Source: a virus. Taken from it: DNA of 20,580 nucleotides. A model generated the notes under the pieces. It saw only the letters and a program-made list of their open reading frames with translations, was not told the origin of the DNA and searched no databases. Location: IMG/VR virus record IMGVR_UViG_3300025889_001178, positions 1 through 20,580 of that record; one strand, given 5' to 3'. This document shows, piece after piece, positions 2,311-20,070 of the stretch. Position numbers and translations under genes: made by a program. Within the stretch, counting starts at the first letter, position 1. Each line of letters opens with the position of its first letter.

Positions 2311-4209
2311 TTATGTGCTATATTTAAGATTAACGTAAAGAGTATCAGCTGTATCAACAGTCCCATTTATTTGTTGAATAAAAAAATAAAAACCAGTTCC
2401 GCTTGAAAACAGTTGAATAAAAGCAGTAGCATTAGCATTCCCCCCAAGTGAGGAATAAACATGCCCTGTTCCAATCAAACCATATACAGAGGCTATTCCA
2501 ATTTTTTCACCAGAAAAAGGCAAGCCCTCAACAACAATCCAATCGCCAGTAACCATTGTCTCAACGCCTGAATGTGTAATATCAAAAGCTGCAACCGCAT
2601 GAACAATATCGCCGATCTTTACATACTTTCCCTCAACATTAGTAAATCCTGTTATATTAGCAAGGCCAGACGCGGTGTTATAACTGGGCGTCCAAGTCCC
2701 CTCCTCATAGTCATCCAGATGATTAGCCGACCCAGTGCCGCCAAGGTAGACACCGCCAGAGAGGTAGAGGTCTTTGAAGCGCCTTGTACTATCCCCCAAA
2801 TCAATAGCAGCATCACGAGCAGCATTAGTTGATGTATTCCAAGGATCAATGCTGTCTAATTGGTCATTAAAGAATAGACCAGTGTCACCTGTTCCAGCAT
2901 ATAAACGACTACCATTAGTCCCAATACTCCCCACAGTGGTGCCGTCTTTGCGGAACTCTGCAATGTTTCCGTCTAAGTTAAGTCTGTTGAATATAGCAGA
3001 GGCCCCACTATCTCTAGAAGCCCCCACTAGACCAAAAGCATTTCTTAAAGCAACACCAGTCTCAGTGGAACTGACATAAGGAGCAGGGTCAGTAGTCCCC
3101 ACCAGCAAGTTACCGCTGCTGTCGATGCGCATGCGTTCTGTAGAGCCACCAGAAGTAAAGGCTAACGCACCTGAGCCGCCTGTGTTCATTATTGTAGAGA
3201 CACTATCCTCAACCTTAAATCGTAAGTTGCTGTTGGAACCGTTAGTTACATTGAACGCAGTTGTGCCATTGCTTATGATACCGAGGTCTAACCTGTACCC
3301 AGGCGAACTCGTCCCAATGCCTACGTTACCCGACGTATCAATAACCAAACGATCACTTGCAGCATTATCATCACGAATAGCAAAAGATGCTAAGCCGTTC
3401 CAGCGGATTCGAGATAAGTTGCCAGTGACTGACGTTAAGTATAAGTTTGCGCCTCCTGCTGTAGAGTTAATTTCTACTGATGCGGCTGTTGCCTCAATAT
3501 CTAATGTTCGAGAAGGACTACTCGTCCCGATGCCCAAACTCTCAGCACTCGCATCCCAGAAGAACTTTGGCGTGGTGCCTGTGTCATCGTAGAAGCTGAT
3601 GTCGCCGTTGTTTGCTACCTGTAAGTGTAGATCACCCTGACCCGCAGACATATTGCCAGACCTAGCTTCAAGTACAGGCCCAGAGCCTCCATTTTGTATA
3701 TAGGCAGCTACATTTGATGAGTTTCTAGCAAGTAAGTTGTAATTTGTATTCCCACTATCTGCTTGAAAGCTATCAGCCGTCACAGTGCCAGTTACGTCAA
3801 TACCTGTGCTGGTGGTGGTGAGAACATTGCTTCCTAAATGTTTTAGAAATACCGTGCCTCCAGCGCCTCCATCAATCATACTAATAAAGCCATTTCCATC
3901 GGCATCTTGTATTGTTATATCAGTACCTTTGATACGCAGGTTGCCTGTTCCAGCATCATGGATGATTGATTGTGTCCCATCATGGTAAATCTGCAGGTCA
4001 GACCCAGCACCAAAGATGGCTTTCTCACCATCAGCAAACAAAGTATCGCCGCTAGAGTTTTCAGTCTTTAGCTCAAAGCCACCAGCCGTTGCGCCATCGT
4101 GAACACGAACCCGCTTGTTCGTTGTGTCAAATGTAAGCTCGCCCTGTGCGCCAGTAAATGAGTCATTCTCAGAAGAAGTACCGCGACGAAGTTGTACCTG
4201 TGTAGCCAT
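2311..4209 (-). CDS. Tail fibre with Mtd-like N-terminus (receptor-binding candidate)
   Basis: The 632-aa product has three visible parts. Residues 1-47 (VQLRRGTSSEN, QGELTFDTTNKRVRVHDGAT) match the N-terminal fold of major tropism determinant-like fibre proteins. Residues about 60-495 form a Gly/Ser/Thr/Asp-rich beta shaft. It contains repeated units of the type ID-SGN-GIGTSSP (GIGTSSPSRTLDIEA near 226-240, VIDTSGNVGIGTSSPGYRLDL near 289-309, and a diverged RIDSSGNLLVGTTDP near 361-375). Residues about 498-632 begin with LDDYEEGTWTPSY, a common junction before the C-terminal tip in marine phage fibres. The ATG overlaps the stop of the 575-aa fibre (TAATG) and has a GGGAG site 7 nt upstream, so the two fibres should be made together. 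The tip-coding end is more A+T-rich than the shaft. Direct receptor binding is inferred. Confidence 0.85.
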   Translation of the reverse strand: MATQVQLRRGTSSENDSFTGAQGELTFDTTNKRVRVHDGATAGGFELKTENSSGDTLFADGEKAIFGAGSDLQIYHDGTQSIIHDAGTGNLRIKGTDITIQDADGNGFISMIDGGAGGTVFLKHLGSNVLTTTSTGIDVTGTVTADSFQADSGNTNYNLLARNSSNVAAYIQNGGSGPVLEARSGNMSAGQGDLHLQVANNGDISFYDDTGTTPKFFWDASAESLGIGTSSPSRTLDIEATAASVEINSTAGGANLYLTSVTGNLSRIRWNGLASFAIRDDNAASDRLVIDTSGNVGIGTSSPGYRLDLGIISNGTTAFNVTNGSNSNLRFKVEDSVSTIMNTGGSGALAFTSGGSTERMRIDSSGNLLVGTTDPAPYVSSTETGVALRNAFGLVGASRDSGASAIFNRLNLDGNIAEFRKDGTTVGSIGTNGSRLYAGTGDTGLFFNDQLDSIDPWNTSTNAARDAAIDLGDSTRRFKDLYLSGGVYLGGTGSANHLDDYEEGTWTPSYNTASGLANITGFTNVEGKYVKIGDIVHAVAAFDITHSGVETMVTGDWIVVEGLPFSGEKIGIASVYGLIGTGHVYSSLGGNANATAFIQLFSSGTGFYFFIQQINGTVDTADTLYVNLKYST

Positions 4210-5936
4210 TATAAGCTCCCATAATCAGTAGATGAGGACACCGCGTCAATTACAGCGCCATAGTCAAAGATGCCATCAATCACACCAGCATTGATGTTAG
4301 AGGCCACCAAGTTAATATTTGCTAAGTTAGCAACAACAGTATCGATGTCAGCATAGTCACCAGCAACAGCAGTAATATCACCACTAATGCCAGCAGCCGT
4401 TGTTACATCAGAACTAATTCCCGCAACAGTCGTTACATTCGCAGCTATCCCAGCAACAGTCGTTACGTTTGCACTAATACTGCCAACAGTATTAACGTCA
4501 TCAATGTTTGTTGCCACAGTATCAATCTCAGATACCGCTTCATTCAAGTCATTCGCAGCAGTCTCAATCTCAGAGATCGCTTCGTTTAAGTCATTGGCAA
4601 CAGTAATAACATCAGCAATGTTTGTTGCTACAGTATTTACCGAAGCAATATTAGCTGAAACAGTTTCTAACTCATCAGTATAACCAGCAATAGCTGTCCA
4701 ACTAGAAGCAACACTAGACACATCCGAGATGTTAGTTGCTACCGTATTAATGTTTGATAGGTTGGAAACAGCAGTGTTAATATTCGAAATGCTGCCAGCA
4801 ACAGAGTTTACATTGCTAATTGCAGTTGCCACCGCGCCAATGTCAGCAGCGTCTTGCGCTACAGAGGTTACATTAGCAGAGATCCCTGAGACAGTTGCAA
4901 TGTCAGAAGAAATATTAGCCACCGTAGAAAGATAAGCCGTATCACCAGCAACCGTAGTAACATCTGCACTAATACCAGCAACCGTTGTGACATTGGTAGA
5001 AATATTAGCTACGTCATTTACATCATCGATGTTGCTGCTAACTGTAGTAATGTCGGCTGCATTGCTATTAACAGTGCTGATTGCAGCAGTAATGCCAGCA
5101 ACAGTCGTAATGTTAGAAGAGATTCCAGCAACAGTATTGATATTGCTAATGTCACCAGCAACAGTGCTAATGTTAGAGCTAGCAAGAGCAACAGTATCTA
5201 CATTGCTGATTGATCCAGCAACAAGCTCAACTTGATCGATGCTGTCTGCAACATCATTAATATCAGTAATAGAATCAGCAACATCACGAACATCACTAAT
5301 ATTAGAATTTAAACTAAGAATAGTAGAAATGTTATTAGCAACAGTTGCAACACTAGATATGTTTAATCCAACAGCATTAATGTTGCCAGCAGCAGTCGCA
5401 ACAGTGCTTAAATCAGAAGAAACACCAGCAACAGTTGTAATGTCATCAGCAATAGAAGCAATGCTTGTTAGTTCATCCCCGCTCGGGCCAACCTCCAAGG
5501 CACCAGTTGAGGAGTTAAACTGGATTGTTTTACCAAGTCGGTCAGCCGTTGCTGGGAGATCAAGAGAAACCGCAACTTCATAATCATTCAAAGAAATAGA
5601 GCGTGACACTCGATCATCAAGGTCAGCAATCTGAGCAACGATTGTGTCTAGTTGGTTGTTAATTGATGCAGCGTTATAAGTTGCCGTAAGGTCAGTTGTG
5701 CGCTCTAGTGGCACATCACGAGTCATAGCAATTTTATCGCCAGCCGTTGCACCAGTTACCAAAGTCATCGTTGACCCAGAGATCGTGTAATGAGTGGTAA
5801 TCGTTTTTAACGTACCGTTTTGATAAACGTTGATGTCACCATCATCAAAATAATCAAACGGAATTGTAAATGCAGTTTGGCCAGATGTAGCCGTGTAATT
5901 TATCCGTGGATTGTTGTCAGATACATCGATTGTCAT
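4209..5936 (-). CDS. Tail fibre, T7 gp17-like N-terminus with decapeptide repeat shaft
   Basis: The 575-aa product begins with a T7 gp17-like fibre-attachment domain (about residues 1-150: RINYTATSGQTAFTIPFDYF, then GDKIAMTRDVPLERTTDL and LDDRVSRSISLND). In T7 this domain joins the fibre to the tail nozzle. From about residue 159 to 553 the protein is almost entirely ten-residue repeats of the form V-A-x-x-I-S-x-[V/I]-x-T. It ends DYGSL with no separate receptor-binding head. It therefore looks like an adaptor and long shaft onto which the next, translationally coupled fibre could be mounted. The start at 5936 has a GAGGTG ribosome-binding site 5 nt upstream. A 70-bp gap with a terminator-like hairpin and an intergenic motif separates it from the ejection protein gene. 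Confidence 0.88.
   Translation of the reverse strand: MTIDVSDNNPRINYTATSGQTAFTIPFDYFDDGDINVYQNGTLKTITTHYTISGSTMTLVTGATAGDKIAMTRDVPLERTTDLTATYNAASINNQLDTIVAQIADLDDRVSRSISLNDYEVAVSLDLPATADRLGKTIQFNSSTGALEVGPSGDELTSIASIADDITTVAGVSSDLSTVATAAGNINAVGLNISSVATVANNISTILSLNSNISDVRDVADSITDINDVADSIDQVELVAGSISNVDTVALASSNISTVAGDISNINTVAGISSNITTVAGITAAISTVNSNAADITTVSSNIDDVNDVANISTNVTTVAGISADVTTVAGDTAYLSTVANISSDIATVSGISANVTSVAQDAADIGAVATAISNVNSVAGSISNINTAVSNLSNINTVATNISDVSSVASSWTAIAGYTDELETVSANIASVNTVATNIADVITVANDLNEAISEIETAANDLNEAVSEIDTVATNIDDVNTVGSISANVTTVAGIAANVTTVAGISSDVTTAAGISGDITAVAGDYADIDTVVANLANINLVASNINAGVIDGIFDYGAVIDAVSSSTDYGSL
4278..5462 (-). repeat. Tandem decapeptide-coding repeats in the fibre shaft
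   Basis: About 36 consecutive 30-bp units encode the pattern V-A-x-x-I-S-x-[V/I]-x-T, for example VAGISADVTT, VAGSISNINT and VATNISDVSS. The register is broken only near the unit VASSWTAIAG, which is followed by a 7-residue extension, and by two 14-residue units (VANDLNEAISEIET and AANDLNEAVSEIDT). The coding is diverged at synonymous sites, so this is an old protein repeat rather than a fresh DNA expansion. The periodic small and hydrophobic positions suit a regular trimeric fibre or beta-solenoid. That structural reading is inference. Confidence 0.85.
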
Positions 5937-6006: not shown

Positions 6007-9000
6007 TTAATACCTACCAAATCCACTAGGCTCATCAATGCCCTTTTCTAGCATTCTAGTGAACTCATTCATTTTTTGTTTCCAAAACCATAGTCGCGCC
6101 ATCGGAAGATTGCGGATTACTTCTTTGCTGCCTTCGCCGATGTTGCCCGTTGCCAAGTCATATGCCCCACGACTAATGTCAGATGCAATGCTAGGACCAG
6201 CGCCAAGCACACCTGTTGCAGCATCGATGTAATCTTTTTCTTGTGGGAATCTTGGCTGCAATCCACCGCCAGTTAAATTAGGACCACCAAGAGCAAGGCT
6301 TGTAGACATTGCGGTATAGAACATATCTGAATAAAGAGCCGCAACACCAGAGTAATCAAATGATCGAGCAAGCTGATCTTGGAAAGACATCTTAACAAAG
6401 TCAGGTGTTTTATATTGAAGCACCAAATAACCCAAGCCAAGAGAAATAGCCGTTCCAACAAACTGATTCTTTAGTTGCCCGTGGCCGTAAGCCGCTGTTG
6501 TTTTGTTTACCGCAGCCAAAGCATAGCTGTAGAACTGGAATGGCAAGCCGAGCAAGCCATTCTCAATACGAGCATATCCCTTATACTTAGCGTCTTCTTT
6601 CATTCCAAACTGCTTGGCAACGCGCATTGGGACATAAACAATACCATCTGTAATAATAGGTTTATCAGCAGGGGTTCCCATTAAAATAGTATTCATGATG
6701 CCAGAGCTAAGAGCATTGCGAAATGTTTGAACGGTCTCAGGCGCAACACGTTCTTGTTTTTTTATTTCAGCAATAGCCAAATCATTAATTGCATTTTCGT
6801 ATGCAGCCTTGCTGCCTTTCTTGCGCATATCAATGCCTACGTCTTTTGGACGATTTAAACTGTGCATAATCTCGTGCATTTTAATGAACGTGACTAAATC
6901 ATCAGGCGTATTTATGATGCCATCTTCGATTGGCCTTACGCCTTCAACTCTTGGGTTTTCCCAACCACGCTCATTCCACATTACATCTTTGATATACTCT
7001 TCATCGATATAGATTTTCTTTTCTTCATGGCGATAGAATGCTGGTTTGTAACGTCCGTTTGCGGCATAACTGTTTGTTGGCCCAGATATAACTTCTGCTT
7101 TTGTAGCAGGAAATTCAATCGTATTTGTCCATGCGTCAGTGTTGGCCATATACATGCCTGACTCTGATTTTTGCCAAGGCGCATTAGCAATCTTCTGAGC
7201 ATCTTCAAAGTTGATATTGTAACGAAGAAGATATTCTTGTTCTTGCTGTGTTGCTTGGCCCTTTGTCCATCGCACTGAGTAATCAATAATAGAGTGAGAA
7301 CGCAACATAGCGTCGAAGTCTTTAAGGATTCGTGTGATTGGTGCAAGCCCGTTAAGCAAATAGAATGGACGCTTTAGTTTATCAAACAAGTCAGCAGCCA
7401 TTGGGTTGTTATTTACTTCATCAACAATTCTAGCCTGGGCAGAACCCATTAAGTTTTCCAGAGCCTCACCAGCTATACGACCTTCTCTAGCTCCAAGTTT
7501 AAGCTGATTGCTTTTAAGGACAGAAAAAAGGCCACGAATAGTTGTGCCTAATCCATGCTCCATAATAATACGCGCAGGTTCAGTTAGCGTAGAAAATCCA
7601 GCGCTGCCTAGATAGTTTAATTGCGCCAAGTCACGCATAACTTTAGCTGTCTTTTGATCCCAAGATTCTGGATTCCGAAGAACAGTGCGAGTTACACGCT
7701 CATACAAATGGCGCATATTCTTCATTGTTTCATGGGCTTTTTCACGAGAGCCACCAGCAGAAATAATCTCTTCATATGTTTCTTCAAGAACATCATCAAT
7801 GCTCTTGCCCTCAAACATTTTAGCAAACTCATAGCGAGGGGCTGTCTTATGAATATAAGCCTTCATGACATCCATAGTGTCGGTATAGATAAAGTCTAAC
7901 ACCTTTTCGTTTGGAATATCTAAGAGGCGATGCTTAAAGTGTTTTGATTTCCCTGCTCCAAATGACGCTACGTCAAAGTCAGTAACATCAGACAAGCCAA
8001 GAATAGTATCGACAGATTCTTTTGCGCGTAAAGCAATAGCAGCAGGTTCAGTGGATGCAGTAGATGGTGTTAGTCGTCCATCTGCACTAACAATCTTTAA
8101 CGGATTTTCAGAAAACCATTCACGAAGAATAGCCTCTAAGCCTTCTCGGTTTGATCTGATTGCCGCTTGATTCCAGTAACGAGGACGAAAGACTTTCTCA
8201 TTGGATGGCATTACCGTCTTGTCTTTAAATACTTCAATGACTTCATTTGCTCGATCTATTTCATCTGAAAGTCGAACAAGAGTTGCTTGTAAATCACCAC
8301 GAATCTCTGCGCTTAAAGGTTTTGCTAGTCTATCTTGAAGAGATTTAATCTTTTCTTCATTGCGAGCAATTACTTTTTTGTAGTGCGCTTCCGTTCCAAT
8401 AAGCCCAGTTTCTCGCAAACGTGTTTCCCAATTTGCATAGAAAGAGTTTATCTTTTCTATAGCCGCTGCTTCAAATTCATCAGCAGGTTCAATGCCGCGC
8501 ATTGCTTTGGAATCAACTTCATTGATCCATTTATTAAAGTCCTTCCTTGCTGGCCAGTAATCCATTGCGGATACAACACCACGCCCAGAAGACTCCCCCC
8601 AAGCATTCGATAAATCATCATACAGCTTAGCAAAGTCACCCTCATGTAGCTTTGCATTTTGGAATACAGAGTTGCCAACTTTTTGACCTTGCTTGTTAGC
8701 TGCAAGGAGAATCCCAGAGTCATTTGCAATTTTTAATGTTCTTAGTTTTGCAGAGTTTGGAATCTCTTTGTCTATCAAAACATTTTTTAATGGCGTTGGA
8801 ACGCTCTTGTATAACCAAGAATCTGTAAACAAGCTTGGCGCTATCTCAGCAAGAGGCTCACCATCAACAGGGGTAATCGCTTCCTGAAGGCGATTGATTT
8901 CTTCTTGTGCATTTTGATAAGCTTTAGCACGACGGGCCGCAGGGATTTTAACCAAACCACCGATCAATCCACCAAGCGCAAATGCAGAGCCAATGTTTAC

Positions 9001-9498
9001 ACCAACTTCTGCGACTGTGGCTAATGGATCAACTGGATACCGAATAGCCTCTTGCCCAGCGACAATAGCTGCTGTTCCTGCACCTGCACGAAGTCCTGCT
9101 GCTGTAATCGTTTGACCGCCAGTAAATGGAATAGCAAGCCAGTTAATTGGGTCTACTATCTCGGCTGCAAGCGTTGCGCCTAAGCCAGATTTATAAAGCG
9201 TCTTTCGTGTTTCCAAGCCATCACGAATATTCCCAATAAGAAAGTTCATGTGCTGTTGGTTTGTCGCTCGGACAAGCGTTGAGCTATACTCCAACATATC
9301 TTCTGGTATATGATCTACTGCTCGATAACCTGCATCTGGCAAGTTATTGAACGTCATATCTTCTTCAATCTTATCTATAAGTGGATCGTATTTATAAGCA
9401 AGAGAAGCCCCAAGAGTTTCTGCAAATGTTGGGTCTTGTTCTTGATTTATAAACTCACCAGAGGCAAATTGAGGAAGATACTGTAAACCATTTTTCAT
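6007..9498 (-). CDS. Internal virion (ejection) protein with metallopeptidase-like insert
   Basis: The product is 1163 aa from the ATG at 9498-9496. I chose this start because it overlaps the previous stop by one base (TAATG) and has an AGAAGG site about 9 nt upstream. A longer frame from 9549 would overlap that gene by 52 bp. By position it corresponds to T7 gp16, the large internal protein that enters the cell with the DNA. Residues about 125-185 are hydrophobic and Gly/Ala-rich. The C-terminal part contains GIMNTILMGTPADKPIITDG, KYKGYARIENGLLGLPFQF and another hydrophobic stretch (GTAISLGLGYLVLQY), as in ejection proteins of related marine podoviruses. Between NTDAW (about 786-790) and the ETVQTF segment (about 921-926) lies an apparent insert. 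It carries HEIMH at 875-879 and a possible third zinc ligand, E901, in YENAIND. No lytic transglycosylase motif is evident. The ejection role is inferred from synteny; protease activity is a prediction from the HExxH motif. Confidence 0.82.
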   Translation of the reverse strand: MKNGLQYLPQFASGEFINQEQDPTFAETLGASLAYKYDPLIDKIEEDMTFNNLPDAGYRAVDHIPEDMLEYSSTLVRATNQQHMNFLIGNIRDGLETRKTLYKSGLGATLAAEIVDPINWLAIPFTGGQTITAAGLRAGAGTAAIVAGQEAIRYPVDPLATVAEVGVNIGSAFALGGLIGGLVKIPAARRAKAYQNAQEEINRLQEAITPVDGEPLAEIAPSLFTDSWLYKSVPTPLKNVLIDKEIPNSAKLRTLKIANDSGILLAANKQGQKVGNSVFQNAKLHEGDFAKLYDDLSNAWGESSGRGVVSAMDYWPARKDFNKWINEVDSKAMRGIEPADEFEAAAIEKINSFYANWETRLRETGLIGTEAHYKKVIARNEEKIKSLQDRLAKPLSAEIRGDLQATLVRLSDEIDRANEVIEVFKDKTVMPSNEKVFRPRYWNQAAIRSNREGLEAILREWFSENPLKIVSADGRLTPSTASTEPAAIALRAKESVDTILGLSDVTDFDVASFGAGKSKHFKHRLLDIPNEKVLDFIYTDTMDVMKAYIHKTAPRYEFAKMFEGKSIDDVLEETYEEIISAGGSREKAHETMKNMRHLYERVTRTVLRNPESWDQKTAKVMRDLAQLNYLGSAGFSTLTEPARIIMEHGLGTTIRGLFSVLKSNQLKLGAREGRIAGEALENLMGSAQARIVDEVNNNPMAADLFDKLKRPFYLLNGLAPITRILKDFDAMLRSHSIIDYSVRWTKGQATQQEQEYLLRYNINFEDAQKIANAPWQKSESGMYMANTDAWTNTIEFPATKAEVISGPTNSYAANGRYKPAFYRHEEKKIYIDEEYIKDVMWNERGWENPRVEGVRPIEDGIINTPDDLVTFIKMHEIMHSLNRPKDVGIDMRKKGSKAAYENAINDLAIAEIKKQERVAPETVQTFRNALSSGIMNTILMGTPADKPIITDGIVYVPMRVAKQFGMKEDAKYKGYARIENGLLGLPFQFYSYALAAVNKTTAAYGHGQLKNQFVGTAISLGLGYLVLQYKTPDFVKMSFQDQLARSFDYSGVAALYSDMFYTAMSTSLALGGPNLTGGGLQPRFPQEKDYIDAATGVLGAGPSIASDISRGAYDLATGNIGEGSKEVIRNLPMARLWFWKQKMNEFTRMLEKGIDEPSGFGRY

Positions 9499-12400
9499 TA
9501 CTGCATACCTTCTGCCTGTTTCTGAATCCCGCCGTAATAACCTTCCCAAGTGCTTTTATTTAGCCTTTCTTGGCGGCGTTGATTCTCTTCTGCTTTTTGT
9601 CGCAAGTCTGTTTTTACTCGGCCTTCTTTCATGCTGAGATATGTTGCAATATCATCTACGCCAAACATGGGCCAAACCATTTCGCTTTTCTTTTCACTAA
9701 TGCTGCGCTCAAAGATTAATGGGCGTAATTCATTTTGCTCGTCAACATAGTAAGCATAGTATTGAGGTGTAGCTGTACCCTCTACTGGCATTAAATATAC
9801 TTGCTTTTCACCAGTCTCTATGTCTTGACCTGTACGACCAAAACGTTTTGTTGCATTCAGCGAGTATCCATTTGGAAGTTGTGACTCCACAGTTTGGATA
9901 AATTGTTGTCGATCTTCTTTATCTCTAAACACAGCTTCTAGCGCATAGCGTGATCTAAACGGTGTACCAACAGGAAGTCGCGGATCAACAATGTATTTAG
10001 ATTCAGCATAACGCTGATCGATGAGAGTGTTGGCTTTGCTTAAAGCAGTCTCAAGTGTATTTTGAGTACGCAACCAATATTCAACAACAGGCTTTATTTC
10101 AGAAATAAGCATTTGATCGTTGCCAAATTCATCCGTTAAAACAGATTCTAAAGTTGCCTCATCACCTTTTGTTTTAATCTGCTCTGTTACATACCGATTT
10201 GACTTGTCATCTGCATTCATTTCACGAAGGCGCATAACAACATCATTAACATTACCACCTTGCGTAGCCACAATAGCGTTTGCATCTTGTAATAAAGCAA
10301 TGGCTGTATCGCTAAGAGAATTGCCAAACGGTTTTCCTTTAGCTTTGTTTACATTCATAAACAAATCCATAATGTCAGCCGCACCGTCAACAGATTGGCC
10401 AGACGCGATAGCCTCTAAAGACTCAACAAACTTAGTAGCTGGCGCACTTGTAAATAGCTGCACCATAGCCATTTGAGTTTCAGGATCATAATTAGAAAAC
10501 TGGCGAATATCCAACCCAGCTGCATCAACAAACCCTTGAGAAGCATCTCTATGATCTTTTAAGTTTGCATTTCCAAAGCCACTAATAACATCAGTGTTAA
10601 TTTTGGCTTTACGCAACTCTTCCTGATTTGCATTCTCACGTTCAGAGACTACAGATTTTAGGCCGCTAATCTTAGAAACAACAGCGTCAACATCTTGTCG
10701 ATCAGAAACTTTTCCTAGAATTTCCTCGCCAGCTTTAATAACCTTCTGGCTCATGCCGTCGCGCTTTTCTCCATTGCTATCAACAAAGATCTGAAGATCA
10801 CGCATTTCTTGAGAACTGGCGTTTTGAGAAAATGTATTTACAAACCCAATACCAGCTGCCTGACGCACTTGAGATTCACGGCTGCGACCTTGCTCTACCG
10901 TTAATCCTTTTGGCCCAATGCTTTTACGAATGTCAGATATTAACTCATCAAAAGCTTTGTCGTTAAAACTTCCGTTTGACATCAACTGTGTTGAACTGCG
11001 AACTTTTTGAGAAATCTCATACTGAACCTGCATTTTTGCAAGCTCTTCCGCATACTGATCTTTTGTTTTTGACAGAAGGTCGTTTACAAAGCCTTGGTCT
11101 TCACTCGCGTTGTAAAGATTGCTGTCTAAAACCTCAGAAATAAACTTGCGTTGGACATCTGAAAGCTTTGATATATCCCCGCCTTCTGCATTTAAAACAA
11201 GCCTTAACTGGTCAATGTTGCCATCTTTAGAAGCCTGTAAGATAAATGGACGCAATGATGCTTGACGCGCTTCACGCTTATCTCCTTCCCACTCAGACCG
11301 AGAATAATCTTTATCTGTTTGATATCTTTCATTCAGATTAGCTTCTATAGTCTGATAGCCACTTTCTACAGATTGAAAAGCCCCAGAAATAGATTGAGGC
11401 ATTAGTTGCCCAATTTCATCACGGCTATTAAAGCCATAATAAGCAATATTGCTTGATATGTCCCCTAGCGTAGAAACTGTTTCTGGAAACTGCAAGTCCA
11501 TCATGCGGCTTTGTTGTTCTTGCTGCCGCCGAAACGCATCAGCTTCCTCTCTTGCTATTGCCGCAAGATCAGCCTCTACAGAAGTATAATCAGAAGACAC
11601 ACCGCTTGCATGGTTGAGTACACGCTCAATGTTATCAGGAGTTACATAACGTAACGCTTGCTTAATTTCATCTTGAATGCCTTTAGGTAAATTACCTAGA
11701 GTAGAATCTCCACGACGAATAGCAAGAATAGTTTGATCACGTTCTAATTTAGAAACTGTACCAGATAAAATATATTCAATACTTCCACGCGCAATAGATT
11801 CTTGCATTTGCTTAGTAGCTTTTAAATCCGATCCTGGATTTAACACTCCAGAGGTAGATCCATTCTTTGCATCAGCAATAGCTTTGTTTGCAATTAGATC
11901 TGCTTCTGATGCTGGATCGCCATTAGCTGCAAGGAAGCCACCAGACTTTGCAGAAATATACGCATCATCTCCAGCTTTATCAACGCTGTTAGCTATAGAG
12001 GTTGCTAGCGCTGCTCTTGCTCGTGAGTTAGCCGCCTCTTGCAAGTTTAAGTAGGTATCAGCAATATACCTAGATCCAACAGTTGTTATTTGTTCTTTGT
12101 ATTTCCCAGTCGCATTTTTAGCCATTTCGCTGACATAATCAGACATAGCTGTTTTATAACCATTTGGGCTATACTTATATTTTACAGCAAGTTCTTTGGC
12201 TTTTAAGCGAACCTCTTCTTGCATTGAATCTTCATATCGAGCATCAATAACACGTTGATAGGCTTCAGCCGCAAAACGGCCAAAGCTCTGAGGTACCTTA
12301 TATGCTTCGGGCTTTCCAGTCTCAGGATTAATTGTTGTCAACTGCTCTCTTGGCGCAGCTTCAGCAGCCTCAGAACCAGCCCTTACAGCATCCTCTTTAG

Positions 12401-12536
12401 CACGTTGATAGAAATACCCCTGCCATTGGCTTGCAGCATTGGCAATAGCTTCACCAGTTATTTCGCCACCACGAGATGCACGGGCGACACCAATAGTGCC
12501 AATCTTAAACTGACGCTGTTCGCGAATTACTGCCAT
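9498..12536 (-). CDS. Internal virion protein, T7 gp15-like position
   Basis: This 1012-aa protein is long, mainly alpha-helical and charged, with no signal peptide and no clear membrane segment. It opens MAVIREQRQFKIGTIGVARA and contains an N-terminal stretch rich in AAxxW and AKED helices (ANAASQWQGYFYQRAKEDAV) that resembles gp15-type core proteins. It starts immediately after the stop of the 158-aa gene (TAAATG) with a strong GGAGGT ribosome-binding site, and its own stop overlaps the 1163-aa gene. In T7 the gp14, gp15 and gp16 proteins form the internal core and are ejected to make the trans-envelope DNA channel. The same role is inferred here from size and order. It is longer than T7 gp15 (about 750 aa). 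No enzymatic motif was recognised. Confidence 0.75.
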   Translation of the reverse strand: MAVIREQRQFKIGTIGVARASRGGEITGEAIANAASQWQGYFYQRAKEDAVRAGSEAAEAAPREQLTTINPETGKPEAYKVPQSFGRFAAEAYQRVIDARYEDSMQEEVRLKAKELAVKYKYSPNGYKTAMSDYVSEMAKNATGKYKEQITTVGSRYIADTYLNLQEAANSRARAALATSIANSVDKAGDDAYISAKSGGFLAANGDPASEADLIANKAIADAKNGSTSGVLNPGSDLKATKQMQESIARGSIEYILSGTVSKLERDQTILAIRRGDSTLGNLPKGIQDEIKQALRYVTPDNIERVLNHASGVSSDYTSVEADLAAIAREEADAFRRQQEQQSRMMDLQFPETVSTLGDISSNIAYYGFNSRDEIGQLMPQSISGAFQSVESGYQTIEANLNERYQTDKDYSRSEWEGDKREARQASLRPFILQASKDGNIDQLRLVLNAEGGDISKLSDVQRKFISEVLDSNLYNASEDQGFVNDLLSKTKDQYAEELAKMQVQYEISQKVRSSTQLMSNGSFNDKAFDELISDIRKSIGPKGLTVEQGRSRESQVRQAAGIGFVNTFSQNASSQEMRDLQIFVDSNGEKRDGMSQKVIKAGEEILGKVSDRQDVDAVVSKISGLKSVVSERENANQEELRKAKINTDVISGFGNANLKDHRDASQGFVDAAGLDIRQFSNYDPETQMAMVQLFTSAPATKFVESLEAIASGQSVDGAADIMDLFMNVNKAKGKPFGNSLSDTAIALLQDANAIVATQGGNVNDVVMRLREMNADDKSNRYVTEQIKTKGDEATLESVLTDEFGNDQMLISEIKPVVEYWLRTQNTLETALSKANTLIDQRYAESKYIVDPRLPVGTPFRSRYALEAVFRDKEDRQQFIQTVESQLPNGYSLNATKRFGRTGQDIETGEKQVYLMPVEGTATPQYYAYYVDEQNELRPLIFERSISEKKSEMVWPMFGVDDIATYLSMKEGRVKTDLRQKAEENQRRQERLNKSTWEGYYGGIQKQAEGMQ

Positions 12537-13013
12537 TTATTTACCTCCACCGCCACGGCGACCAGTGCTTCCACTTCCTGCCATAGTATCTTGATAATCG
12601 CTAATGCCACGAGCCAGTGTGCTAAAGGCTCCAATCATTGCTGCTTGTTTTTGAGCGCGGCCCTCGATCCTTGTTGCTGTAGCTTGCTGTTGAAGTTTCA
12701 TTGACTCAAACATACCCATAACATCAGAGCGACGTGTGTCTTCTGCTGCTGTTTGTTTTTGTTTTTCAAGAAAGGCCATAACAGATCGATCAGTAATATC
12801 TCGACCCATTGCATAAAAGGAAGCAATATTTGAAGCATTGTTTTGACGATACTGTTCCAAGCGATCATTGTGACGCTGGAGCGCTTCCGTCTTGCTTCTT
12901 ACTTTTTCAGTTTCAGTATTAAAAGCATCCAAATCAGCGGATTCTTGCGCCGCTTGGCCAGCGGCTATCTGCCCCATTGCGCCAATACCTGCTGCTATTA
13001 ATTGCCATACCAT
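12537..13013 (-). CDS. Small internal virion protein, T7 gp14-like
   Basis: The 158-aa product begins with a hydrophobic Gly/Ala-rich segment (WQLIAAGIGAMGQIAAGQAA). This is followed by a long helical, charged middle (ETEKVRSKTEALQRHNDRLE, QYRQNNASNIASFYAMG) and a Gly-rich, basic tail (TGRRGGGGK). This is the typical layout of gp14-like ejection proteins, which insert in the outer membrane in T7. Position directly after tail tube protein B and before two very large internal proteins supports the call. Its ATG overlaps the previous stop by one base (TAATG), and a GGAG site lies about 11 nt upstream. Confidence 0.82.
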   Translation of the reverse strand: MVWQLIAAGIGAMGQIAAGQAAQESADLDAFNTETEKVRSKTEALQRHNDRLEQYRQNNASNIASFYAMGRDITDRSVMAFLEKQKQTAAEDTRRSDVMGMFESMKLQQQATATRIEGRAQKQAAMIGAFSTLARGISDYQDTMAGSGSTGRRGGGGK

Positions 13014-17063: not shown

Positions 17064-17585
17064 TCAGTGCATCATGGGCCGTGATGTGCTATCATAAACA
17101 TCTGCATGTGGATTTTTACAACGCACAAACTCTACATATTTGTTATTTCCGTTTAGGGCAACACCTACAGGTTCATAACCCAACCACAATGCCCACTGAA
17201 TCATATGTTCATAATCAGCCAGAATAGTCATTGTTGTGTTGGGATTTGTTTTATCGATGTAGTCTAAAAACATTTTAGACCCTCTAGCTATAGCGGTGAA
17301 GTTGTCACCAAGCTGTTCTGAAAACATAGCAAACATCTGCGGCATATCATCTCCAGCATCATACCAAAGACCACCAACAAAAAGAAAAGGCTCGCCATCC
17401 TTGCGAGCCAGATAACATTCAGAGCATTCATACATTTCTTCAAGAGCTTGCATAATGCTGCTATACCCAAGAAGCTTTAGCTCTCGTCGATTTTCCTTGC
17501 TAAGATGATCGTGGACTTCCTGAAGATGATCCTTGCGCAAAGGAGTTAAGTAATAAGGACCACGATTAATAATCTTAACGTCCAT
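17064..17585 (-). CDS. T7 gp13-like GNAT-fold virion-assembly protein
   Basis: The 173-aa product begins MDVKIINRGPYYLTPLRKDH. I chose ATG 17585-17583 because AAAGAG lies about 5 nt upstream and the start overlaps the scaffold stop by only 11 bp. The longer frame from 17633 would overlap the scaffold by 59 bp. The sequence has a GNAT-like strand pattern: ECYLARKDGEPFLFVGGLWY in the middle and MIQWALWLGYEPVGVALNGN near the C-terminus, as in gp13-type proteins. The acetyl-CoA loop consensus is not clear, so enzymatic activity is doubtful. T7 gp13 (138 aa) is needed for assembly of the internal core. An equivalent morphogenesis role is inferred from its place between scaffold and capsid. Confidence 0.75.
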   Translation of the reverse strand: MDVKIINRGPYYLTPLRKDHLQEVHDHLSKENRRELKLLGYSSIMQALEEMYECSECYLARKDGEPFLFVGGLWYDAGDDMPQMFAMFSEQLGDNFTAIARGSKMFLDYIDKTNPNTTMTILADYEHMIQWALWLGYEPVGVALNGNNKYVEFVRCKNPHADVYDSTSRPMMH

Positions 17586-18303
17586 ATAACTCTTTGAACC
17601 CCGCCTCGACTTGCTTCCGAACCTGAGATCCATCCTTCCAGTAATCAGGGTGGCGCATCATTTCATTAAGATCATCTTGACTTATGCGACCAGCTGCTTG
17701 TACTGGCTCACTAAATGTTCCATCCTTCATTGCTTCTTGAATTGCTTCAAGCGCAATTATTCCTTCGTGGGTTTCACACATGCGTTCAATCGCTGGCAAT
17801 GCCGATGATGGAAAGAACTTGTTTGCAAAAGCTGACGCTGCGTCAATTCGAGCATTTGCATTGTCGCCAAGCTTTGCCATCTCAGCCTCTAAGTCTGGCT
17901 GATTTGCATTAATTGCCTGAGCATACATCTCAATGCCTTGTTCAAATTCCGATTGACTATACCCATTCTCAAAAGAATGTTCTGACCACCATTTTAACAG
18001 ATCACTATCTACTGCAAGACTGTCATCAACAATGTCTGGAAGCTGATAATCACCAGCTGAATCTGGGCGGTCTGAAAAAGCTTGGGATTGAATCTCTTCA
18101 AGGATAGACTTGCGCATGTCCTCCTCTTTTGTTCCCAGCTTTTTTGATAGCTCATCATAGGATTTAGCTAAATCTTCTGCTGTATTAAATTTTTCAGGCA
18201 ACCATTCTGGTCGCGCTGGAGCTTCTGATTTGTTCAGGTCTTCTTCCGTTACAAAATCACGACCATCTGCGGCTGCAATCTCTACTGCATTATCTTCACT
18301 CAT
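17575..18303 (-). CDS. Capsid scaffold (assembly) protein
   Basis: The 242-aa acidic, helical protein contains RPEWLPEKFNTAEDLAKSYD followed by ELSKKLG, the usual N-terminal signature of T7-like scaffold proteins. It ends with RISQDDLNEMMRHPDYWKDG and a basic tail, similar to the capsid-binding C-terminus of scaffolds. It should guide procapsid assembly around the portal and leave before packaging. The ATG overlaps the previous stop by 4 bp (ATGA) and has a strong AGGAG site 7 nt upstream. Location just before the gp13-like and capsid genes agrees with this role. Confidence 0.9.
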   Translation of the reverse strand: MSEDNAVEIAAADGRDFVTEEDLNKSEAPARPEWLPEKFNTAEDLAKSYDELSKKLGTKEEDMRKSILEEIQSQAFSDRPDSAGDYQLPDIVDDSLAVDSDLLKWWSEHSFENGYSQSEFEQGIEMYAQAINANQPDLEAEMAKLGDNANARIDAASAFANKFFPSSALPAIERMCETHEGIIALEAIQEAMKDGTFSEPVQAAGRISQDDLNEMMRHPDYWKDGSQVRKQVEAGFKELYGR

Positions 18304-18557
18304 TGTTTACTCCTATGTGCATGTGCAATACGCTGTTCAAGAAGGCCAACAATATATCGTTGACCCTCTATATGGCGTAACTCTTCCGTTGTCACATTAG
18401 GCCCATTTACCATTTCAATAGTAATGGATCGCAAATAACGAAGAACCTCTTTGCCTGTTGGCGTTGAGAAAACTTCTGCAACATTCTGACTAACTTGCTT
18501 GTCTAAGTCAGTTGATCTCTGTATTCCGTCTAGTCCGATATTAACCTTGTTGACCAC
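18300..18557 (-). CDS. Small protein between portal and scaffold, function unknown
   Basis: The 85-aa product from GTG 18557-18555 reads VNKVNIGLDGIQRSTDLDKQ, then VSQNVAEVFSTPTGKEVLRY and GQRYIVGLLEQRIAHAHRSK. It overlaps the portal gene by 17 bp and the scaffold gene by 4 bp. The GTG start has an AGGGG sequence about 11 nt upstream, a rather weak site, so coupling to portal translation is likely. The protein looks like a compact helical domain with no catalytic motif. Small genes occur at this position in other T7-like marine phages. A head-assembly accessory role is possible but not shown. Confidence 0.72.
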   Translation of the reverse strand: MVNKVNIGLDGIQRSTDLDKQVSQNVAEVFSTPTGKEVLRYLRSITIEMVNGPNVTTEELRHIEGQRYIVGLLEQRIAHAHRSKQ

Positions 18558-20070
18558 TCGGCATTATCCCCTGCTGTTGCGCCATTTGCTGCGCTAATGC
18601 AGCTATTTGTTTACGCTGATTTTCGTCACGAATCAAGCTTTCTGGCACACCAAACTTTTTGGCTAGGTGAACAGCTGTTTTTTCACTATCAATTAATACC
18701 TGCAACATCTCTGGGCCGAATACACCACCAACCAACTCTAAGAAGCGAGCAACGCTAGAAATGTCTTGGTTTGCTTGAGCTTGTGCAAGTGGTGAAATAG
18801 AACGAATCTTTACCTCACGGCCATTAACCGTCGGTACTTCAATGCGTCCTTGTTTCTTTAAGATGTAAATGACGCGCTGAAGCACTGGCTGAATAAGCTC
18901 TGCTTGCAAACGGCCAAATGCAGCGCCCATACGACGAGACAAATCAGCCATACGTTCTGCAACCTCGGTTGCTGTGGCTGGTGTCTTATCTGGATCGCCA
19001 AGCATATCGTTAAACAATGCTCGCTTAATGTTTAAGCGTTGCTCAGAAAGAATAAGTTGCGCAACATCAAAGCGACCAGCCGCCTGAATAGGCTCTAAAC
19101 CACGGCTTCCCATGGCTTTTGGAATAATACTCCCTGGTACAAGGTTAATTGTATCAGGATTAATTACGCCATCATCTTCCATTTGATAAATGCCAGATAT
19201 TGCCATCTGAGCATTCTCAAGAATCATCTCAATCGTTAGATTAGTAGTCTTAATTGCGGACAAAGCACTAATGATAGGCCCACGACCATAGACTTCCCCA
19301 GCGCATTTTGCCCAACGGAAACAAATAAATGGATTTGACCCCACACCAGACATCTCTTTAGAGTAAAGAAGCGTATTTGTTGTGAGACAGATAGCATAAT
19401 GGTAATAAGACTCCTCGTTTTTCTTCGAGTAGTCACGACATACCACTTCCAAGACTGTCGTTTTACGCTCTTGCCCCATCATTGATTGAACTTTTTGGTC
19501 AAACTTAGAGTTTGGATACATCAGAGAAAGATGGTCAAACTCTACATTCTTGCGCTCACGATAAACGTGATCGATTCTATCGTCGGGACCAGTGTCAAGG
19601 ACAACATGAGGAAGCGGAATTGCTGAGAATATCACTGGGTTTACTGCATCTCCCTCTTCAACGCACAAGACCCCAGTCCCGACAGCCAAGTCCATGAATG
19701 ATTCATGCACTTCTTGGCTAAAGTTTGAATTTTGAAGAACCTCAAACACATAGTTTGTGACTTCATCTAACTCATTGTCAATTTCATCACGCTGTTCTGG
19801 AGGGACTTCACTACCTGACGTAAGGTCAGCCCAGCGCGCAAAGTTAGGAACCAAGCCAGATTGTAAGCGACTTGCAAACTCTTGAACGCCAACAACAGCA
19901 GTTTCGTCAAAGATCTTTTCATCTCGACGCTGCCCAGCTTCCTCATAGTAAAACGATTCCCGCTGAGGCAGTGTATACTCATAACACTCCTCAAACAGTG
20001 GCACCCAGTTTTCTCGGAAAGCTTTAGCCTTCTGGTACTTTTGGATGTACTTTTTGGCTATCTCGTTCAT
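18541..20070 (-). CDS. Head-tail connector / portal protein
   Basis: The 509-aa protein has the typical layout of T7-like head-to-tail connector proteins: an N-terminal KFRxxW-like region (KAFRENWVPLFEECYEYTLP), FASRLQSGLVPNFARWADL, and an ESFMDLAVGTGVLCVEEGD segment. The C-terminal half has FICFRWAKCAGEVYGRGPII, DPDKTPATATEVAERMADLS and a terminal Gln/Ala-rich helix (IAALAQQMAQQQGIMPSGQQ). It forms the dodecameric ring through which DNA is packaged and ejected. The length is close to T7 gp8 (536 aa). Its ATG overlaps the stop of the 77-aa gene by 4 bp, and terminase lies upstream, as expected. Confidence 0.94.
   Translation of the reverse strand: MNEIAKKYIQKYQKAKAFRENWVPLFEECYEYTLPQRESFYYEEAGQRRDEKIFDETAVVGVQEFASRLQSGLVPNFARWADLTSGSEVPPEQRDEIDNELDEVTNYVFEVLQNSNFSQEVHESFMDLAVGTGVLCVEEGDAVNPVIFSAIPLPHVVLDTGPDDRIDHVYRERKNVEFDHLSLMYPNSKFDQKVQSMMGQERKTTVLEVVCRDYSKKNEESYYHYAICLTTNTLLYSKEMSGVGSNPFICFRWAKCAGEVYGRGPIISALSAIKTTNLTIEMILENAQMAISGIYQMEDDGVINPDTINLVPGSIIPKAMGSRGLEPIQAAGRFDVAQLILSEQRLNIKRALFNDMLGDPDKTPATATEVAERMADLSRRMGAAFGRLQAELIQPVLQRVIYILKKQGRIEVPTVNGREVKIRSISPLAQAQANQDISSVARFLELVGGVFGPEMLQVLIDSEKTAVHLAKKFGVPESLIRDENQRKQIAALAQQMAQQQGIMPSGQQG

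Follow-up and report, generated by a model that had tools for sequence, protein, structure and literature searches.

Zincin-type metallopeptidases are already known to occur within proteins that phages inject, namely in the polyvalent proteins and in the virion RNA polymerase of phage N4; such domains were predicted in 2017, and their role is unsettled. The polyvalent version (MPTase-PolyVal, PF18818, PMC5512222) carries HExxH on one helix and a glutamate on the next, with variable inserts in between, and resides in large carriers that are delivered with phage or plasmid DNA and whose phage copies are encoded among the virion genes. The C1 domain of the N4 polymerase is likewise an HExxH zincin in a giant ejected virion protein (PMC12633501, PMC5512222). 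Here we analyse a viral stretch of 20,580 nucleotides (IMG/VR record IMGVR_UViG_3300025889_001178, positions 1 to 20,580; hereafter the window), which holds the structural genes, in reverse orientation, of a marine T7-like podovirus related to a Pelagibacter phage, and focus on its 1163-residue ejection protein (P0001; 6007..9498, minus strand), a member of the T7 gp16 family (PHROG 342, E 4e-41). A segment inserted after W790 of this protein (residues 791-918; 6745..7128, minus strand) is almost certainly a zincin domain that has been inserted as a cassette.

The likeness to the described systems is partial in each case. Polyvalent proteins carry several disparate effector domains, whereas Pfam and PHROG searches recognised no other effector domain in the window protein; moreover, the window copy falls below the Pfam cut-off, and the domain sits inside a T7-gp16-type protein at defined points and is exchanged as a cassette. 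The N4 zincin is fused to a polymerase and described as almost always present, whereas the type found here is optional and swappable, in a gp16-type carrier without a polymerase. T7 gp16 and its relatives (PhiM1, E1004) have in common with the window protein a core that is homologous from residue 24 to the C terminus and the gp14-gp15-gp16 gene order. However, T7 gp16 combines an N-terminal transglycosylase (in T7 itself; it is not universal) with the lack of a zincin, and the window protein combines a missing N-terminal part with an inserted zincin. IrrE/PprI (M78) and ArdC give the best solved-structure matches (Z 7.3 and 5.3) and bear HExxH and the glutamate on helices, but identity is about 17%, the domain partners are others and the window copy reads ExxI at its glutamate. 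Finally, pb2 of T5 resembles the window protein in that it bears a metallopeptidase motif and enters the envelope together with the DNA; it is, however, the muralytic tape measure of a long-tailed phage and has a cleavable C-terminal part. Within the literature searched, the gp16-type carrier, the defined insertion points, the exchange of two types at one point, the nested inserts and the dead copies are new.

Presence, absence and exchange of the segment

Relatives were gathered by a search with the core only (residues 1-792), which made no use of the segment, and by matching the downstream flank as a DNA pattern; their loci carry L-numbered names. Both flank profiles matched in 151 sequences. 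In 96 of these the flanks enclose an insert longer than 60 residues, and in the others they meet at short junctions of about 6-20 residues. The original prediction had placed roughly 128 residues between two parts of a continuous core, and relatives with 51-67% flank identity indeed close cleanly: in L159 the sequence ...LYLANTKDWANVTGEETVQTFRNAL... runs uninterrupted, and its empty junction, ...ANTKDW-ANVTGE-ETVQTFRNAL..., corresponds to ...ANTDAW-[128 aa]-ETVQTFRNAL... in the window. The two core parts thus joined are residues 1-790 (7129..9498, minus strand), equivalent to T7 gp16 about 229-1063 without the N-terminal transglycosylase part, and residues 919-1163 (6007..6744, minus strand; ETVQTFRNALSSGIMNTILMGTPADKP...), which contain the second membrane-associated region. 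Among 74 non-redundant relatives of at least 950 residues each, found without using the module, 37 carry a module (33 at the window site and 4 at a second site) and 37 have none; searches based on the module added a third insertion site.

The modules come in two types. Type A is the type of the window; type B is longer (about 180-210 residues, HE[LM]xH...YExRI[ND]) and has copies at two further positions, around residues 200-255 and 465-487. The types are probably related, judging from their sequences, because the signature of HExxH plus glutamate is common to both and the type-A profile picks up type-B copies. No protein was seen with modules at two positions, in a collection in which many loci were found by the module itself. 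Apparent double modules in some proteins turned out to be halves split by nested inserts, with two tandem exceptions (L253 and L347) in which a dead or partial type A accompanies an intact type B.

The two types replace each other at a single site. Upstream, as far as the Trp codon, the loci L157 (type B) and L049 (type A) share 93% of their nucleotides over 7.4 kb; there follow about 600 versus 390 unrelated bases, and then 86% identity over 1.5 kb. This difference is a cassette swap, and since type B recurs on independent contigs, it is not the product of one chimeric assembly. In the core tree, the empty L159 groups with full support with the type-A loci L026, L028 and L195. The three states require 7 changes, well-supported branches force 6 changes of type A, and gain and loss are scattered. 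This pattern suggests that the cassette is an interchangeable injected weapon and not a fixed part of the injection machine.

A second level of modularity lies within the domain itself. The loop between the catalytic helices (residues 882-895 of the window protein; 6814..6855, minus strand) is a hot spot of nested inserts in relatives and accepts up to several hundred residues with the ligands kept. L144 and L145, for instance, are 95% identical up to this loop and 93% after it, and differ in the loop itself; unrelated inserts of about 50-300 residues occupy the same loop in L231, L232, L242, L155, L118, L122, L020 and L031. In L195, L040 and L047, a 240-residue insert (FVHYTRKQNIESLL...GDVMYFTND...) separates HExxH from YENAIND and looks by eye like an ADP-ribosyltransferase; for the L195 insert, no match in Pfam, PHROG or phage records backs that likeness.

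A module scan of 84,980 prokaryotic species genomes returned no relative, tblastn of types A and B against GenBank phages gave no match, and single-sequence Pfam, PHROG and PDB sequence searches assigned the segment to no family. Two further observations concern the relatives. Many of them carry, close to the first insertion position (around residues 190-300), inserts of 50-150 residues that contain no zincin. One ejection protein, with a core 46% identical, lies on a contig binned as a Euryarchaeota genome (L375, PBGS01000051.1), probably a misbinned phage contig.

The zincin assignment

The motif positions given in the original prediction are confirmed in the 1163-residue translation: HEIMH spans residues 875-879 (window 6876-6862), YENAIND spans residues 900-906 (6801-6781), and E901 lies 22 residues past H879. 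Shuffling the protein 20,000 times produced HExxH in 1.3% of the random orders, and HExxH followed by a suitable glutamate motif in 0.08%. The combination is thus improbable by chance, yet not decisive by itself; it is conservation that decides. In 42 diverse type-A modules, aligned down to 34% identity with the window copy, the H, E, H, E and N of HExxH...ExxxN belong to 13 invariant columns of about 139. Almost all of the roughly 96 inserts retain HExxH...E. For the module, the ratio of nonsynonymous to synonymous substitution rates (dN/dS) ranges from 0.00 to 0.085 across eight pairs, in seven of which it is below that of the rest of the protein.

Structure prediction is consistent with this signature. 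The AlphaFold2 (AF2) model of the isolated domain (predicted local distance difference test score, pLDDT, 88.4; predicted template modelling score, pTM, 0.82) has a confidently predicted zincin fold that begins with three strands and a helix, after which come the HExxH helix and then the glutamate helix; the full-length model has the same elements. The two catalytic helices are C-terminal, and the sole other long helix comes after the sheet. The predicted active-site helix comprises residues 865-881 (6856..6906, minus strand; H875, E876 and H879 at 6862-6876), and the glutamate helix comprises residues 896-914 (6757..6813, minus strand) with E901 (6796-6798) as predicted third metal ligand. 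Best matches among solved structures (VIA) were all zincins: PprI/IrrE (Z 7.1-7.3, the Z 7.3 match covering 86 residues at 2.6 A; about 17% identity), YbeY, ArdC (Z 5.3), selecase and lethal factor (Z about 4.8). When the PDB alone was searched with Foldseek, nothing reached an E below 0.1. BFVD yielded four clear matches (E below 1e-3), all of them large proteins without a name, and at least one comes from an uncultured phage.

Among families, MPTase-PolyVal was matched most often, if weakly (5 of the 42 modules, best E 0.006); its gathering cut-off was reached by none (no match for the window copy; 0 of 16 records). PF06114 matched weakly in 2 of the 42 modules. A weak PF02868 (thermolysin) match of the full protein was dismissed, as it falls at 761-816, off the HEIMH motif. 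Taken together, the coherent list of structures, the MPTase-PolyVal matches and the motif agree on a predicted zincin. Both checks named in the original prediction favour it: there are homologues with and without the segment, those that have it conserve the two histidines and the glutamate in nearly all cases, and the domain is predicted as a zincin fold in which the glutamate helix comes after the HExxH helix. Of a gluzincin-type site, HExxH with a distal glutamate is present, but the glutamate helix reads ExxI (as in the window copy) or ExxM in nearly all copies and not the textbook Exx(A/F/T/S/G) (PMC7213743).

A few copies have lost the motif. HExxH is missing in four natural copies: L263 (KEVYY), L303 (REIMH), L296 and that of Pelagibacter phage EXVC031P Hodr (L053), the nearest cultured phage found, whose portal is 62% identical to that of the window. 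Hodr does not exemplify a phage devoid of the domain, as a profile search found a dead type-A copy elsewhere in its protein (residues 266-378), with both zinc histidines replaced (KKEVYRG...FENRIN). The window copy itself is predicted with good confidence to be catalytically active.

Possible roles in the infected cell

What might such a cassette do? Its likely location follows from the homology to T7 gp16. When the core without its module is aligned by profile (hhalign) to relatives of T7 gp16, the match extends from residue 24 almost to the C terminus (probability 98%, E 1e-14), and structural matches of the full model to the core proteins of T7 (9jyy_I, Z 9.2), PhiM1 and E1004 confirm the family. 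As the alignment starts at about residue 229 of T7 gp16, the missing piece is the T7 transglycosylase part (residues 1-228, PMC8954989). On T7 gp16, the three insertion positions correspond to about residues 421-506, 703-726 and 1063, and a published model places residues 411-1118 in the host cytoplasm (PMC8954989). All three would thus lie in the stretch modelled as cytoplasmic. Because structural endpoints suggest a somewhat later T7 position, this topology is what we infer. If the mapping holds, the cassette would be a natural tag for the side of the inner membrane reached by that part of gp16.

We envision that the ejection protein is packaged in the head and leaves before the DNA, that it crosses the inner membrane as modelled for the T7 part, with the insertion point on the cytoplasmic side, and that the cassette would so be exposed to the host cytoplasm as soon as infection begins. 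There, H875, H879 and E901 would hold a metal ion, E876 would activate a water molecule, and a host protein would be cut, most plausibly a defence or regulatory protein. In short, we put the probability at roughly 55% that residues 791-918 form a metallopeptidase cassette of the polyvalent-protein type that is exposed to the cytoplasm and cuts host proteins, possibly defence proteins; action on a host cytoplasmic protein, taken singly, we regard as equally probable.

Several points weigh against this interpretation. About half of the relatives do without the cassette, the window glutamate motif departs from the usual gluzincin form, four natural copies lack HExxH, and structural Z scores of 5-7 are middling. 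The T7 gp16 topology is itself a model, and structural endpoints (P0001 929 = T7 1274) put the site somewhat later than the profile alignment does. In addition, the protease centre of ArdC is not needed for antirestriction (PMC7213743).

The main rival is autoprocessing, whereby the zincin would cut the ejection protein or its gp14- and gp15-type neighbours, in the head or after ejection. Such a role was proposed for polyvalent MPTases by Iyer et al. 2017, who cited the processed DdrB of P1 (PMC5512222), and nested segments in some relatives (L195, L231) could be released in this way. We nevertheless consider autoprocessing unlikely. A cassette that is missing from about half of the proteins with the same core is hard to fit to an essential maturation step, a different type can be swapped into an almost identical core, the window protein has no further recognised effector domain, and the N4 virion RNA polymerase, which includes an MPTase, enters the virion without being processed (PMC5512222). 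Although conserved and subject to purifying selection, the cassette is optional and can be exchanged in almost identical cores; a target on the host side fits this pattern better than a maturation protease required by every virion.

Less probable still is a degenerate, structural or binding zincin fold without catalysis, retained for assembly or for DNA binding. It would be in keeping with the four natural copies that keep the signature of the fold without the ligands, and with ArdC, which works with a dead centre (PMC7213743). However, H, E, H and E are invariant across the 42 diverse copies of an otherwise mostly variable domain, the ligands are retained around a loop that takes such large inserts, and dN/dS is very low.

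A cell-wall or periplasm-opening enzyme that stands in for the missing transglycosylase is the most doubtful alternative. Opening of the periplasm was one of three functions suggested in the original prediction, beside cleavage of the phage's own core proteins and the disabling of a host defence. The remark there that no lytic transglycosylase was seen holds: no SLT domain was found in the window, its 1163- and 1012-residue ejection proteins included, or in 26 related records. This absence and the muralytic activity of T5 pb2 (PMC10038345) speak for a wall-opening enzyme, but it is disfavoured because the insertion sites map to the part of gp16 modelled as cytoplasmic, relatives without the cassette also have no SLT, and the fold matches are to protein-cutting or regulatory zincins and not to known peptidoglycan hydrolases.

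Near-identical phages that occur in nature with the cassette present, absent or swapped open its role to direct tests of host range and of sensitivity to defence; the nearest cultured phage has as its host Pelagibacter, one of the most numerous kinds of cell in the sea. More generally, and tentatively, gp16-type proteins of abundant marine podoviruses might be a modular delivery platform that carries interchangeable protease cassettes at a few tolerated points of a cytoplasmic hub, the cassettes being injected anti-host proteases that are turned over in an arms race against defence or regulatory proteins of the host.

The surrounding gene block

The structural block of the window encodes portal (18541-20070), scaffold, major capsid protein, tail tubes, internal proteins and tail fibres. 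The ejection protein gene starts with ATG at 9498, where it overlaps the stop of the upstream gene, and stops at 6007. Upstream of it lie the 1012-residue ejection protein in the gp15 position (9498..12536, minus strand) and a gp14-type internal virion protein (PHROG 418, E 1.7e-8; 12537..13013, minus strand). The former matched no Pfam family and gave weak, chance-level PHROG matches; it may be a strongly diverged tunnel protein. An internal virion protein of PHROG 308 is encoded between the scaffold and capsid genes (17064-17633), and an acetyltransferase-like gene adjoins the tail genes (361-816). The tail fibre protein (4209-5936) contains a long stretch of degenerate repeats of the TVATNISDVNTVA type.
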